A stretch of 21,616 nucleotides of DNA from a virus. Location: IMG/VR virus record IMGVR_UViG_3300036806_000262, positions 1-21,616 of that record. The stretch is one strand, 5' to 3'. The translations under genes were made by a program, and so were the position numbers. Each line of letters starts with the position of its first letter. The first letter of the stretch is position 1. Shown here piece by piece: positions 12,257 to 20,357 of this stretch. The notes under the pieces are model-generated. The model saw only the letters and a program-made list of their open reading frames with translations, was not told the origin of the DNA and searched no databases.

Positions 12257-12259
12257 AAG

Positions 12260-12298
12260 TTTCAGCTTTCAGGGTTTCCGCATTTCAACTTTTCGATT
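12260..12298. repeat. Period-8 TTTC micro-repeat in a gene gap
   Basis: TTTCAGC, TTTCAGGG, TTTCCGCA, TTTCAACT and TTTCGATT run head to tail. They occupy the 41-bp gap between the winged-helix-like gene and the holin-barrel fusion, directly upstream of the latter's start on the minus strand, where no ribosome site is evident. Confidence 0.75.
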
Positions 12299-15690: not shown

Positions 15691-16124
15691 TTCATCTTCC
15701 GGATTTCAAAGACAGCCGCGAAGCGATCCGCTTCGGCCAGCACATCACCCGCGACCAATTTATTTTTCTGGCCGGCGCGCGCGCCGGGTTGAAGCGCGAG
15801 TTCGATGAGATCCGGCATTACGAAGCCTCACTGGATTCCACGGACCGATGTCTCGCGGTTGCGTTCAAACTGCAATTTATCCGCGAGTGCATGGAAGCGG
15901 CGCCGGACAATGTGCTCGCGTCGCTGATCGGCACCGGAATCGTTCGCAACGGTCCAGATCCCGAGGTTCGCGAGGGAGCGAACTTTACGGCGGGAGGCTC
16001 TGAGCGCGCAGACGCGAGTGAGTCTAGGGAAGCCGGCTGCTCGTTTTTGGTGAAAAACGAGAGTCCCATCCACTCAACTTCTCAACCGCTCAACGCCTCA
16101 ACTTCTTTGGAGGCCGCGCGATGA
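15687..16124 (+). CDS. Hypothetical early protein with a repeat-derived C-terminal tail
   Basis: 145 aa from the ATG at 15687, which overlaps the stop of the HTH gene. Residues 1-90 look like a genuine helical protein (DSREAIRFGQHITRDQFIFLAGARAGL, FDEIRHYEASLDSTDRCLAVAFKLQFIRECMEAAPDN). From about residue 92 the composition changes: the coding DNA there contains two hairpins (15966-15983 and 16040-16061) and a period-8 CTCAAC repeat (16073-16104), giving tail residues such as IHSTSQPLNASTSLEAA. The tail probably arose from repeat insertion. Function unknown. Its stop overlaps the next ATG (ATGA), and GGAGG near 16110 serves that next gene. Confidence 0.65.
   Translation: MIHLPDFKDSREAIRFGQHITRDQFIFLAGARAGLKREFDEIRHYEASLDSTDRCLAVAFKLQFIRECMEAAPDNVLASLIGTGIVRNGPDPEVREGANFTAGGSERADASESREAGCSFLVKNESPIHSTSQPLNASTSLEAAR
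15966..15983. repeat. Small hairpin in the gene tail
   Basis: GTTCGC (15966-15971) pairs with GCGAAC (15978-15983) across a six-base loop. It opens the repeat-rich segment at the end of the 15687-16124 gene. Confidence 0.6.
16040..16061. repeat. Perfect 9-bp hairpin in the gene tail
   Basis: CTCGTTTTT (16040-16048) and AAAAACGAG (16053-16061) pair perfectly with the loop GGTG. Inside a coding frame this strong stem is unusual; it is not followed by a T-run, so it is not a typical terminator. Confidence 0.8.
16073..16104. repeat. Period-8 CTCAAC micro-repeat, four copies
   Basis: Four head-to-tail units, CTCAACTT, CTCAACCG, CTCAACGC and CTCAACTT. It encodes the last residues of the 15687-16124 protein and ends just before the ribosome site (GGAGG) of the next gene. 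Confidence 0.9.
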
Positions 16125-16383: not shown

Positions 16384-16556
16384 GCCTTTTCCCGAAGAGC
16401 CAAAAGCTGGAGCTTGAGTTCAACGAGAAACAGGTCGCGCTGATAGAGGAGCTTATTGACAAGGGCTTTCACGGTACAAGCGCCGCCCAGTGCGTAATGC
16501 GCCTGATCGATGCGCAACTCCTCGAGATTATCGAAGAAAAAGGAGACCAATCGTGA
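16380..16556 (+). CDS. Ribbon-helix-helix-like small regulator, 58 aa
   Basis: Sequence starts MSLFPKSQKLELEFNEKQ. A beta strand (KLELEF), a helix (EKQVALIEELIDKG), a short turn with GTSAAQ, and a second helix (CVMRLIDAQLLEII) are the order and length of CopG/Arc ribbon-helix-helix proteins, which bind DNA as dimers through the strand. ATG at 16380 overlaps the membrane protein stop (ATGA) and its TGA overlaps the transposase GTG (GTGA). Being directly coupled to the transposase it may autoregulate that part of the operon. The fold call is by eye. Confidence 0.6.
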   Translation: MSLFPKSQKLELEFNEKQVALIEELIDKGFHGTSAAQCVMRLIDAQLLEIIEEKGDQS

Positions 16557-18424
16557 CCGAGTTCCAGGCCGACGAACAGCGCCGCCGCCACGAGCTACTG
16601 GTCCAGTGGAACGCGCTGAAATCGGCGCCGCACAATCTCTCCGGAAACAAAGCGGCCGATCGGCTCGGCGAATCGCACGCGACCCTATTGCGATGGCAAC
16701 GCCGATATGAGTCGAGAGGCCTCGACGGGCTGTTACCAGACCAGGCAAACCTCTGTGGAGGGAAGGCAAAATTTGCCCTGGATGAATCCGAGCAGCACGC
16801 GCTCCGGCATTGGCGGCTAAAGAAAAATTCGTTGCCGCTGGCGATCGAAGAAGGGTTTGTTAATGATCCCGATTGCCGTCCGGAAACGCGCGCAAAAATT
16901 CACGCCGAGATGGATCTCGCCGCGCGCGAGAAACGCGCGCCGCGCTGGCCGATGTCGATCCAGCGCGCCGGTTACGTAAGCGAAGACGAGAAAGCGCTCC
17001 ACCGCGGACCGAAACATTTTCAGGAGTTCGAGATCATCGAGCGCCGCGGACTTTGGATCAACGGCTTGAACGGTCACGAGATCCCTATCGTCGGAAATAC
17101 GCTGTTCGAGTCCGACGATATGTCGGTCAATGAGCCGTTCCGATATCTGGATCCTGAAACCGGCGCGGTCAGGGTCGGCCGTCAATCGCTTGCCACCATC
17201 AACGTTTATTCAGCGGCATGGCTCGGCGTTTCACCGGTAGGCCGTGAACGGGACGCTTATCGTCTAGAAGATATCGCGGACCACTTGCTCGACGTGGTCG
17301 ACGCCCAAGGGCTACCCATGCTTTGGCGATTCGAACGCGGACCGTGGGAGAACCAGGTCATCGACGGAATTAAACTCGGCGATGGCACCAGGTGGGGCGA
17401 TCTCTCGGCGCTTTTCCGCGTTCTTCATGTTTTTAAATCGCGCTCGAAAGGTTTGATCGAGTCGAGCTTCGGATTTCTGCAATCGCTGATGGCGCATGAA
17501 TCGTTATCGATCGGGCGATCACGCGGCGAATTTGAACGCGCGACAAAATTATTTCTGGCAGCCGGCCGCGGCGATTCCGGCGCAGCCTTGCACTTCTGGG
17601 ACATTTCAGAATGCGCCGATGGCATGGCCGACGCGATGGTGCGATTTAATGATCGTCCTAAAATTCGCCGCGCGTTTGGCAAGCAGGCAGTCGTGCCGGC
17701 GGACCTGCAACGCTCGGCAGAAAAACGGGAATGCCCGAAGTCGGAACGTTGGAGATTCTCACCGATCAAGCGCCCGGCCACGGTCCGGGGCGGCGCGATC
17801 GAAGTCTCGGTAAATCATTATCCGTTTCCATTCCGGTTTCGCGTCAATGGCGCGAGCGATTTGTATTTAGAGCGCGGCTACTCAGTCCTGATCGCGTTTC
17901 ATCCCGGGCGACCAGAGGAAGGCTGTCACGTTTTCAATGCCGAGCTCGGCAGCCGCAATCGCGACGGGTTGAAGCTCGGCGAATTTTTAATGGTGGCGCC
18001 GTTCGCCGAGGACGCGCCGCAGCTCAATCTGGCGCCATCCGAGTATGCCTTCGCCGCGCGCAAAAATGCCAACGCCGCGGTTCGCTCAGAGTTCCGCGCG
18101 ATCACGGCCGCCGGCTCGCGAGCTCGCCGCGTCTCAATTTCACGTGACGGTTATGGGAACGCGGTTCGCCGCGAAGCTGGATGCAACGTCACGTTGCCTT
18201 TGCGGTCTGAACCAGTCGGCTGTGGCGCGCAGGGAGATCCTGCGACTCCGAATATCGAGAGGTTCTCTATTCCCTCTCGACGGCTCTCAAGGTTAGGCAG
18301 CCGGGATGACGGACATGAATCACCGGGGGTGCGGACCGCAAAACCTTTCGATGAGGAAGCCGAGCTCGCTCGAGTTCAAAAAATGGAAAAGGACGCGATC
18401 GATCGCGGCGACCTCGTCACATGA
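16553..18424 (+). CDS. Mu A-like DDE transposase
   Basis: Catalyses strand transfer for integration and replicative transposition. GTG start at 16553 with AAAGGAG about 9 bases upstream gives 623 aa (MuA is 663). An N-terminal HTH (NKAADRLGESHATLLRWQRRYES, residues about 32-54) precedes the catalytic core: first acidic residue in TLFESDDMS (D188 or D189), ERGPWENQ at about 261-268, and glutamate in KGLIESSFGFLQ (E303). The second catalytic position, normally Asp in a DNG/DxG context, is Glu in ERG. A beta-barrel-like region follows (IEVSVNHYPFPFRF, YSVLIAFHPG). The C-terminal linker is interrupted in frame by a palindromic element (18177-18197) and a hairpin (18255-18280). The last residues (EEAELARVQKMEKDAI) fit the MuB-contacting helix. 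Confidence 0.85.
   Translation: MTEFQADEQRRRHELLVQWNALKSAPHNLSGNKAADRLGESHATLLRWQRRYESRGLDGLLPDQANLCGGKAKFALDESEQHALRHWRLKKNSLPLAIEEGFVNDPDCRPETRAKIHAEMDLAAREKRAPRWPMSIQRAGYVSEDEKALHRGPKHFQEFEIIERRGLWINGLNGHEIPIVGNTLFESDDMSVNEPFRYLDPETGAVRVGRQSLATINVYSAAWLGVSPVGRERDAYRLEDIADHLLDVVDAQGLPMLWRFERGPWENQVIDGIKLGDGTRWGDLSALFRVLHVFKSRSKGLIESSFGFLQSLMAHESLSIGRSRGEFERATKLFLAAGRGDSGAALHFWDISECADGMADAMVRFNDRPKIRRAFGKQAVVPADLQRSAEKRECPKSERWRFSPIKRPATVRGGAIEVSVNHYPFPFRFRVNGASDLYLERGYSVLIAFHPGRPEEGCHVFNAELGSRNRDGLKLGEFLMVAPFAEDAPQLNLAPSEYAFAARKNANAAVRSEFRAITAAGSRARRVSISRDGYGNAVRREAGCNVTLPLRSEPVGCGAQGDPATPNIERFSIPSRRLSRLGSRDDGHESPGVRTAKPFDEEAELARVQKMEKDAIDRGDLVT
18177..18197 (+). repeat. Dispersed 21-bp palindromic element inside the transposase linker
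   Basis: CTGGATGCAACGTCACGTT followed by GC; identical over all 21 bases to the copy at 20605-20625 and differing at two bases from the 4501 copy. It is read through in the transposase frame. Confidence 0.9.
18255..18280. repeat. 8-bp hairpin near the transposase 3' end
   Basis: TCGAGAGG (18255-18262) pairs with CCTCTCGA (18273-18280) across a 10-base loop. It lies 58 bases after the palindromic element in a stretch of transposase linker that looks inserted. Confidence 0.7.
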
Positions 18425-18452
18425 AAAGCAGCAGCAAGAACGGAAATGGGAA

Positions 18453-18665
18453 ATGGAACTACAACAAAAGGCTGAAACGCTGAAACGCGGACCGGCTGAA
18501 ATAAAAATCAACGTCGTCGCGATCTTCCTGGACGCGGCGATTCAACTCGGAGATTGGGAAGGCGCTCGAATCTTGCGCGGACTGCTTCTGCGCCGGCCGG
18601 CGTTGCCTTCGCCTCAATATCTCAACGGCTCAACGCCTCAACAGTCTGATCGGAGGGGCGCCTAA
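18453..18665 (+). CDS. Small protein between transposase and MuB; start affected by an 8-bp duplication
   Basis: From the ATG at 18453 the product is 70 aa, beginning MELQQKAETLKRGPAEIKIN. A helical core VVAIFLDAAIQLGDWEGARILRGLLLRR follows, then a repeat-derived tail (PSPQYLNGSTPQQSDRRG). Unlike other genes of this operon it has no stop/start overlap with its upstream neighbour. The expected ATGA exists at 18421, but that frame ends after 20 codons at 18483. The duplicated GCTGAAAC (18471-18486) is the cause: with a single copy the 18421 ATG would read directly into KRGPAEIKIN. Either start could be used in nature. Family not recognised. Confidence 0.6.
   Translation: MELQQKAETLKRGPAEIKINVVAIFLDAAIQLGDWEGARILRGLLLRRPALPSPQYLNGSTPQQSDRRGA
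18471..18486. repeat. Exact 8-bp tandem duplication, GCTGAAAC twice
   Basis: Two adjacent exact copies. Because eight is not a multiple of three, gain or loss of one copy switches the frame that begins at the coupled ATG 18421. A 7-bp duplication (GGAAATG twice, about 18442-18455) lies just upstream. Confidence 0.9.
18613..18644. repeat. Period-8 CTCAAC micro-repeat, four copies
   Basis: CTCAATAT, CTCAACGG, CTCAACGC and CTCAACAG head to tail, encoding the C-terminal tail of the small protein before MuB and ending just before GGAGGGG, the MuB ribosome site. Confidence 0.88.
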
Positions 18666-19658
18666 ATGGCCCCCGAATTATACGGCACGATGGAAGTCCA
18701 GGAGCTCCAGGATCTCGCCGGCAAAGTCCAGGAATTTCAGAACGCGCGGAAGTTGTCCGACGCCGCGCTGGCGAAAATGCTTCCGTCGATCGGGTCCACC
18801 AAAACTTACAAGCGGATCCTCGGCGGCGATCTGAAAGAGCTCGATCTCGAAAATCAGCTTCACGGTTACCGGAGCGCGGTCGCGTTCATCGAATCGATGG
18901 GCGAGGACGACAGCCAGGAGGAAGAACTCTACGAGGATCTCTACCCGGTCATCCATTTGCGGCGCGCGTTTTTCGAGACCACACGCGAGCGCGGCATCGC
19001 GCGGGTGATCTTTTTGCTCGGGCCTAACGGGTCCGGCAAATCGAGCGCGCGCAAATTGTTGATCGAGAAATTCGGGCAACGCCTGATCACCATCGAAGCG
19101 AACGTGGCCTGGAACGATTCGCCCCAGGCAATGCTCGGCGCGTTGCTGGCGCAATTTGGGAAAAAAGATGTGCCGTTCACCGATCGGCTAACGATTGCGA
19201 TCGAGCAATTGTCCCGGAGCCGGCGCTGTCTTTGCATCGAGGAAGCGCACCATCTTGGGCCGCGTTGTTTGAACCTGGTCAAAACGCTGATCAATCAAAC
19301 GCCGGCGGAAGTGATCTTGATCGCGATCGACACGCTTTGGCGAAAGCTCGAGACCCGCGCTTACGAAGAGGCGACCCAGCTCACCGGCAATCGGCACGCG
19401 GACACCATTCGGCTCGGCTCGTCGGTCCGCGACAGCGATGTCCGGAAATTACTCGAGCGCCGGATCCCAAGTTTAAACGGCGATATCAAGCAAGCGGTCC
19501 GCCTGGTCGCGGAGAAAGCGAACGCCGGCGGAATGCGGCACGGCCTTTACGCGTTCGTGCGCGAGGTCTGCAAAAAGGCCAACGAGAAAGCAGGCAAAGA
19601 CGACGTCACGCTCGAGATCCTGGTCAACGCCGTAGCCGAGGAGGCGGCGAGCCGATGA
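18666..19658 (+). CDS. Mu B-like AAA ATPase, transposition target activator
   Basis: ATP-dependent DNA-binding protein that coats target DNA, presents it to the transposase and gives target immunity. 330 aa (MuB is 312). The N-terminal 60 residues hold an HTH-like region (LSDAALAKMLPSIGSTKTYKRILGG), as in MuB. Walker A is GPNGSGKS at about 119-126, Walker B is CLCIEEAHHL at about 188-197, and a sensor-like segment EVILIAIDT follows. The C-terminal helical lid (DVRKLLERRIPSL ... LVAEKANAGGMRHGLYAFVREVCKKA) is typical. The ribosome site GGAGGGGCGCCTAA precedes the ATG. The stop overlaps the next gene (ATGA). Confidence 0.88.
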   Translation: MAPELYGTMEVQELQDLAGKVQEFQNARKLSDAALAKMLPSIGSTKTYKRILGGDLKELDLENQLHGYRSAVAFIESMGEDDSQEEELYEDLYPVIHLRRAFFETTRERGIARVIFLLGPNGSGKSSARKLLIEKFGQRLITIEANVAWNDSPQAMLGALLAQFGKKDVPFTDRLTIAIEQLSRSRRCLCIEEAHHLGPRCLNLVKTLINQTPAEVILIAIDTLWRKLETRAYEEATQLTGNRHADTIRLGSSVRDSDVRKLLERRIPSLNGDIKQAVRLVAEKANAGGMRHGLYAFVREVCKKANEKAGKDDVTLEILVNAVAEEAASR

Positions 19659-19882
19659 ATCGCGCAAGAGATCACAAGTCAGCGGTCGGCGGTCGGAAAA
19701 AAACAAAGCCGCCTACGCAGCAAGAATTGAAACGGCGGAAACTTTGTGACGAGCTCGCTGATCGGTTAATCGCGCGCGGGAAGGTCGTCAACTATTCCGG
19801 CAACCGGGAAGAAGTGATCGATCTACTCGAGGAAGCGGTCCGCAAAGTCACGATCTTCAATAATCACGGAGGTCGCCGATGA
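19655..19882 (+). CDS. Small basic early protein, 75 aa
   Basis: The start ATG overlaps the MuB stop (ATGA). The N-terminal 30 residues are very basic (ARDHKSAVGGRKKTKPP, LKRRKLCDELADR), followed by a short helical part EEVIDLLEEAVRKVTIF. The N-terminus is partly encoded by a short GTCGGCGGTCGG repeat. No family recognised. Charge suggests nucleic-acid binding. Its stop overlaps the following ATG (ATGA at 19879). Confidence 0.6.
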   Translation: MNRARDHKSAVGGRKKTKPPTQQELKRRKLCDELADRLIARGKVVNYSGNREEVIDLLEEAVRKVTIFNNHGGRR

Positions 19883-20094
19883 GCGCCTCAACTTCTCAAC
19901 GTCTCAACCGCTCAACTCTTGAAGAGGACAAGGCGATGAACTTCGCCCGGTTTCAACTCCGGATGCAGCGAACGATAGGGGAGATGGCGCCACGCGCGAC
20001 GGAAAAAAATAATGTTCCGTTAAATGGCAGTGCGCCTCGCACCTACGGCGAGGAATACGAACTCATCGTTAATCGACCAGGAGGTTTGCTGTGA
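19879..20094 (+). CDS. Small early protein, 71 aa, with repeat-encoded N-terminus
   Basis: The coupled ATG at 19879 gives a product that begins MSASTSQRLNRSTLEEDK, which is the translation of a CTCAAC period-8 repeat (19887-19918). A second ATG at 19936 (MNFARFQLRMQRTIGEM) follows GAAGAGGACAAGGCG, which contains a usable ribosome site, and would give 52 aa without the repeat. The conserved part is likely the second half (RMQRTIGEMAPRA, YGEEYELIV). No known family. The stop overlaps the next GTG (GTGA), and AGGAGG in its last codons serves that gene. Confidence 0.55.
   Translation: MSASTSQRLNRSTLEEDKAMNFARFQLRMQRTIGEMAPRATEKNNVPLNGSAPRTYGEEYELIVNRPGGLL
19887..19918. repeat. Period-8 CTCAAC micro-repeat, four copies
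   Basis: CTCAACTT, CTCAACGT, CTCAACCG and CTCAACTC head to tail, located between two alternative start codons of the 71-aa gene. This copy is at a 5' end, whereas the 16073 and 18613 copies are at 3' ends. Confidence 0.9.
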
Positions 20095-20357
20095 TCGGAG
20101 AACAGAAAACGCCGAACGCTCAACTCCCAACGTCCAACGCTGAACTACAGACCGCGCTTTTGATCGCGGGACAGTTGTTCGGTTTAGCAACGCGACTCGA
20201 CGCCGATGCGCTCGAGCGCTTCCTGGATTCAAAACCGAAGGATTTTTACCACGAAGCAACTTGTCGCGCCGCGATCGCGTTTCGTCGTTCAATCGACTCG
20301 GCGCTATCCGCGTCATCCGCGAAATCCGCGGTTAAAGAATCGGGAGGCGGGAAATGA
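20091..20357 (+). CDS. Small early protein, 88 aa
   Basis: GTG start at 20091 with a strong AGGAGG seven bases upstream, overlapping the previous stop. Both ends are repeat-encoded: the N-terminus (KTPNAQLPTSNAELQ) from a period-7 CAACNNN repeat, and the C-terminus (SALSASSAKSAVKES) from a period-9 ATCCGCG repeat. The middle (LLIAGQLFGLATRLDADALERFLDSKPKDFYHEATCRAAIAFRRS) is helical and is probably the functional core. No family recognised. Its stop overlaps the next ATG (ATGA). Confidence 0.6.
   Translation: MIGEQKTPNAQLPTSNAELQTALLIAGQLFGLATRLDADALERFLDSKPKDFYHEATCRAAIAFRRSIDSALSASSAKSAVKESGGGK
20114..20148. repeat. Period-7 AACNNN micro-repeat, five copies
   Basis: GAACGCT, CAACTCC, CAACGTC, CAACGCT and GAACTAC head to tail, encoding the N-terminal segment of the 88-aa protein. 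Confidence 0.8.
20302..20334. repeat. Period-9 ATCCGCG micro-repeat, three copies
   Basis: CGCTATCCG, CGTCATCCG and CGAAATCCG, then CGGTTA, head to tail, encoding the Ser/Ala-rich tail of the 88-aa protein. Confidence 0.8.

Follow-up and report, generated by a model that had tools for sequence, protein, structure and literature searches.

An octamer doublet behind a phage transposase gene as a probable part of a dispersed four-unit array family of Verrucomicrobiota and viral contigs

The window, meaning the whole stretch of 21,616 nucleotides that was analysed, is a virus record in itself; its left part has minus-strand genes for portal (phrog_113) and terminase (phrog_2), and its right part carries a transposase gene and an AAA ATPase gene matched to the DNA transposition protein family (Table 1). 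This gene arrangement appears like that of transposable (Mu-like) phages, and the ATPase would have a MuB-type role. The nearest relatives are L003, a virus record with an ATPase of 75% identity, and L002, a Chthoniobacteraceae MAG with an ATPase of 56% identity; L011 and L012 lie farther away. The transposase, used in single-sequence searches, returned no match in viral contigs and none in named phages. A link of the phage to the Chthoniobacteraceae is suggested by one relative (L002) and by the arrays described below.

Table 1. Features of the window discussed in the text (SD pairing values are predictions)
Feature	Position	Strand	Description
Second CTGAAA-type array	12257..12296	-	more degenerate; 19.9 bits vs shuffle maximum 16.1
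(CTCAACNN)x4 array	16073..16102	+	47.0 bits vs null maximum 10.8; followed by SD-like GGAGG and ATG 16122
Transposase gene	16553..18424	+	65%/53% identical to L003/L002; phrog_310, E 6.7e-6, N-terminal region only
20-codon ORF from ATGA overlap	18421..18483	+	closed by TGA of array unit 2; SD pairing -3.4 kcal/mol
70-aa ORF, slot between transposase and ATPase genes	18453..18665	+	SD pairing -4.8 kcal/mol, weak
A-rich leader ACAAAAGG	18464..18471	+	fits family flank consensus
Doublet of GCTGAAAC	18471..18486	+	array units 1 and 2
Array of four 8-bp units	18472..18501	+	CTGAAACG, CTGAAACG, CGGACCGG, CTGAAA; seen in sequence, by TRF and by profile
(CTCAACNN)x4 array, first unit CTCAAT	18613..18642	+	29.8 bits; ends 23 nt before ATPase start
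AAA ATPase, DNA transposition protein	18666..19658	+	AAA_22, 7e-13; phrog_296, 1.4e-14
(CTCAACNN)x4 array	19887..19916	+	39.6 bits; begins 5 nt after stop at 19882

Behind the transposase gene an 8-bp word is present twice in tandem, reading GCTGAAACGCTGAAAC, and its 8-bp period extends to 18488. The transposase stop (TGA 18422-18424) is overlapped by ATG 18421 as ATGA, and the ORF opened there is closed by TGA 18481-18483. The sequence-only reading had reported the doublet and the stop after 20 codons, and had held that without one copy ATG 18421 would be joined to the frame of the 70-aa ORF; the former is confirmed in the sequence and the latter by frame computation. In the one-copy version ATG 18421 opens 78 codons with the same end as the ORF from ATG 18453, while ATG 18453 is closed after 12 codons. 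On its own the doublet is weak evidence, since a second-order model predicts 0.33 perfect 8-bp tandem doublets for a window of this composition and two are observed, the other lying at 1162; the chance is 1 in 2 that an 8-bp change joins two frames 32 nt apart, and nothing is unusual about an out-of-frame ORF of 20 codons. Chance is exceeded by features that the sequence-only reading had not noticed: a further CTGAAA at 18496 in register, the A-rich leader, and the close agreement of the site with a dispersed family of four-unit arrays.

The CTGAAA cores at 18472, 18480, and 18496 share one common 8-bp register, and the repeat called by TRF covers 18467-18488. Unit 3 has the degenerate core CGGACC, which matches two of six core bases and has lost the TGA; the 30-bp length of the site agrees with four units of which the third is degenerate, and unit 3 would then have decayed from an intact unit. 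In 73 family arrays the leader consensus has A at positions -5 to -3 (0.88/0.92/0.95) and G at -1 (0.81), and the leader of the window has AAA and G at these positions. A profile built from 72 four-unit (CTGAAANN)x4 arrays, taken from other records only and none from the window, scores 39.8 bits at 18464-18503, compared to a maximum of 16.1 in 300 shuffled windows and of 11.2 in 20,000 simulated 8-bp duplications elsewhere in the window; the site without units 2 and 3 still reaches 32.1 bits against a null maximum of 22.8. The exact array had no counterpart in the other records searched. A structured RNA at the site was considered and ruled out by a z of -0.45 and by Rfam, which has no match in the window. 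A 7-bp doublet, GGAAATG, lies just upstream of the array at 18442-18456 and contains the ATG 18453 start codon.

Further arrays occur in the window. The minus-strand CTGAAA-type array lies exactly in the gap that separates one gene's stop (12298) from the following ATG (12256). A CTCAAC sister family has three arrays in one operon; behind each, within approximately 19-23 nt, comes a start codon accompanied by an SD-like stretch. Arrays of the CTCAAC kind abound in certain genomes of the order (G113, G114, G115, G132, and G146). Directly upstream of the array at 16073 a hairpin-like CTCGTTTTTGGTGAAAAACGAG occupies 16040-16061. A possible heptamer version (CTCAACT CCCAACG TCCAACG CTGAACT) is seen at 20119-20146, and regions of genome G150 show excess 7-bp periodicity. 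None of six transposase relatives scanned with the array profile gave a match above the shuffle maximum; the arrays are therefore not a shared trait of the phage group.

The family occurs in soil Verrucomicrobiota, in the order of the Chthoniobacteraceae MAG and beyond, and in many viral contigs. A scan of viral contigs with GCTGAAACGCTGAAACGC returned 12 stretches, several of them with further period-8 CTGAAA arrays elsewhere. Among 213 genomes of the order CTGAAANNCTGAAANNCTGAAA was found in 27 and CTCAACNNCTCAACNNCTCAAC in 25, with dozens per genome in some; reversed-pattern controls were nearly empty, with a single match for the reversed form against 27/213 genomes for three units of CTGAAANN. 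In the phylum sample 23 of 378 genomes had a four-unit match of either type, some of these being plain satellites; the pure (CTGAAATC)n satellites of G068 and G069 were excluded as family evidence. An open search for any array of 6+2 bases, run on regions fetched as holding such arrays, returned almost only the CTGAAA and CTCAAC cores. In 150 arrays, a set that leans to four units because one collecting pattern required four, the unit count was four in 113, three in 21, five in 12, and six in 4; an earlier set of genome regions gathered with three-unit patterns had four exact units in 45 of 69. The spacer pairs vary, and adjacent spacers are identical in 27% of cases when 17% (CTGAAA) or 9% (CTCAAC) is expected; some copying between units is therefore likely. 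No description of the octamer families was found in the literature searched, the scope of which falls short of most subscription papers.

The CTGAAA family is mostly intergenic and enriched at or just after gene stops, judged from arrays that were gathered by core-containing patterns, mostly from contigs without gene annotation, and from gene calls that are simple ORFs of at least 100 codons. For 40 of 93 CTGAAA arrays a same-strand ORF ends either in the first TGA or at most 16 nt ahead of the array, compared to 14/93 in the opposite reading and 4% at random positions; the gene-end placement of CTCAAC arrays is weaker. With the whole array taken in, the terminating TGA of an ORF belongs to unit 1 in 13 cases, to unit 2 in 12, and to unit 3 in 8, a pattern that is partly arithmetic, since three intact units of period 8 stop every frame. 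Facing array pairs between genes are seen at L075:9807-9888, at L046:1565-2444 and 5439, and in G132 (C3/C32/C42); the pairs, sometimes with A-rich and T-rich ends, could form hairpins resembling bidirectional terminators.

The slot between transposase and ATPase genes can be compared with four relatives that keep both flanking genes. The first slot gene begins 31 nt after the transposase stop in L003, 28 nt in L002, 50 nt in L011, and 33 nt in L012; the stop/start overlap is absent in all four, and the L003 transposase ends with TAG at the place aligned to ATGA 18421. ATG 18453 lies 28 nt past the transposase stop and is therefore considered to fit the relatives, with ATGA 18421 appearing incidental. 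After the repeat the codon score of the 18453 frame is 0.19, versus 0.03 and -0.16 in the other frames; this lies within the trusted-gene range, and its margin of 0.16 compares to a 5th percentile of trusted margins of 0.09. It is therefore likely, as judged from sequence comparison, that ATG 18453 is the real start of the following gene, and the 18421-18483 ORF is probably not a gene. Use of the internal ATG was one of three options offered by the sequence-only reading, and it is the one that the gaps of the relatives and the codon statistics favor.

The slot genes of the relatives show no evident relation to that of the window; the slot (window 18425-18665, L003:4633-5000, L002:7786-8884, L011, and L012) holds a different gene in each and may be a variable cargo position. 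The slot protein has no family match, nor a homologue in viral contigs by single-sequence search. Weak matches to it in the order (E 0.0016-0.0065) were set aside: two are interrupted by stop codons, and the third, at 37% identity, falls within a 366-codon frame whose context lends no support. Since the window and L003 both read QQQE in the slot frame, a programmed frameshift into it from the transposase was weighed; it was dropped as the slot frame is closed just upstream in L002 and L011, and the L012 slot gene is in the transposase frame, behind the transposase stop. Slot gene and array are absent from the relatives found.

The doublet is probably best explained as units 1 and 2 of a slightly decayed (CTGAAANN)x4 array belonging to this dispersed and mostly intergenic family, with the ORF from ATG 18453 as the likely gene. 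Every intact unit brings a TGA, and with a period of 8 successive units stop successive frames: unit 1 (TGA 18473) closes the transposase frame and unit 2 (TGA 18481) the frame opened by ATGA 18421, while unit 3, the sole unit able to close the remaining frame, is without a TGA as CGGACC and therefore lets the ORF from ATG 18453 read through to 18665. TGA 18473 and TGA 18497 are both in the transposase frame and TGA 18481 is in that of 18421; the array of the window thus stops the frames of 18421 and 18422 only, and the third is open because unit 3 has no TGA. The only stop inside the array that belongs to an upstream-opened ORF is that of the 20-codon ORF, and this frame layout is why a stop was seen to arise "precisely because" the word occurs twice. 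Placement and arithmetic suggest that the element may work at gene ends, as a cassette for translational stop or insulation, and the 18453 protein would be made. Counting against the array are the decay of unit 3, the distance of 47 nt from the transposase stop (the family tends to 0-16 nt or a stop within the array), and its position inside a predicted ORF; intact forward arrays cannot lie inside an ORF, and the array of the window does lie inside a predicted one.

A slippage-controlled (phase-variable) switch, in which gain or loss of one GCTGAAAC toggles translation between ATG 18421 and ATG 18453, is very improbable. The two frames are mutually exclusive in the one-copy and two-copy versions, slippage is possible in principle with adjacent identical units, and adjacent spacers across the family are identical somewhat above composition (0.27 vs 0.17); against this, only two identical units are adjacent, the family clusters at four units even where three-unit patterns were used, ATG 18421 has weak SD pairing and an overlap that is not conserved, and both versions would give a near-identical protein, so that a toggle would alter the N-terminus only. 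It is improbable as well that 8 bp were duplicated locally by chance, recently or long ago, within a purine-rich leader and without relation to the dispersed arrays: the expected number of doublets, the second one at 1162, and the GGAAATG doublet nearby would allow it, but the third core in register, the matching leader, and the other octamer arrays in the same operon speak against it, as does the fact that 0 of 20,000 simulated duplications came above 11.2 bits. The sequence-only reading had offered both a switch and a recent mutation; neither is upheld, as the doublet belongs to a dispersed family that usually has four units with differing spacers.

It is rather unlikely that the slot holds no gene, with 18425-18665 being intercistronic and containing one (CTGAAANN)x4 and one (CTCAACNN)x4 array, and the 70-aa ORF open by chance through the decay of unit 3. 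This explanation agrees with the array and clashes with the use of ATG 18453; the missing homologue and family match, the presence of both array kinds inside the ORF, and the modest SD pairing favor it, yet the codon score is frame-specific and in the trusted range, and an ORF stands in the slot of all four relatives. That the second copy is an assembly or sequencing error in the contig is scarcely credible; the window, being a virus record, comes with no reads for inspection, but there is no positive sign of an error, and in the two-copy form the core at 18496 falls precisely where the 30-bp length of the family places its fourth unit.

The closest described analogue of the octamer arrays is the group of TAACTGA heptamer direct repeats of marine Beggiatoaceae, Cyanobacteria, and Bacteroidetes (MacGregor 2015, PMC4679880), which read forward give stops in all three frames, can overlap upstream gene ends, and have been proposed to play a regulatory role near starts (PMC4679880). 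Both kinds are dispersed between genes, have a period that is not a multiple of 3, and are patchy among lineages, and some copies of both overlap the upstream stop codon (PMC4679880). The TAACTGA unit is an invariant 7 bp in 2-6 copies in the main genome and up to 43 elsewhere, mostly just upstream of starts (PMC4679880), whereas the 8-bp unit CTGAAANN joins a core of 6 bp to two variable bases, and its arrays, usually of four units behind an A-rich leader, occur in Verrucomicrobiota and viral contigs, mostly where genes end. The array of the window does not share the three-frame stops of TAACTGA, unlike octamer members in which three units are intact.

Phase-variable simple-sequence repeats (contingency loci) are likewise tandem units of a length that is not a multiple of 3, but the octamers cluster at four units with heterogeneous spacers, and in place of a run of several identical units the window has two adjacent ones. 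The STRR heptamers of heterocystous cyanobacteria are short tandem units dispersed between genes; they are set apart from the octamer arrays by another unit length and another lineage. REP/BIME elements (PMC2817692) are dispersed extragenic repeats that sometimes form facing pairs; they differ from single octamer arrays, which are not palindromic, and facing octamer pairs occur in G132 and L046 and not at the sites of the window.

The supposed switch is thus replaced by a general feature, octamer elements of near-constant size that are scattered intergenically across several lineages of Verrucomicrobiota and among phage records. It is tentatively proposed, as a possibility of less than even standing, that Verrucomicrobiota and their phages share an undescribed class of dispersed four-unit octamer elements (CTGAAANN and CTCAACNN) which serve as multi-frame cassettes for translational stop or insulation at gene ends, and that a phage gene has taken in part of the one at this locus after its single frame-blocking TGA was lost. 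The reading-frame logic of the octamers is directly testable, and the arrays can mislead gene callers. Near-constant unit number together with free spacer bases is unlike the products of slippage and asks for a mechanism of copying or selection; the arrays may furthermore point to the hosts of uncultivated soil phages, as a signature.
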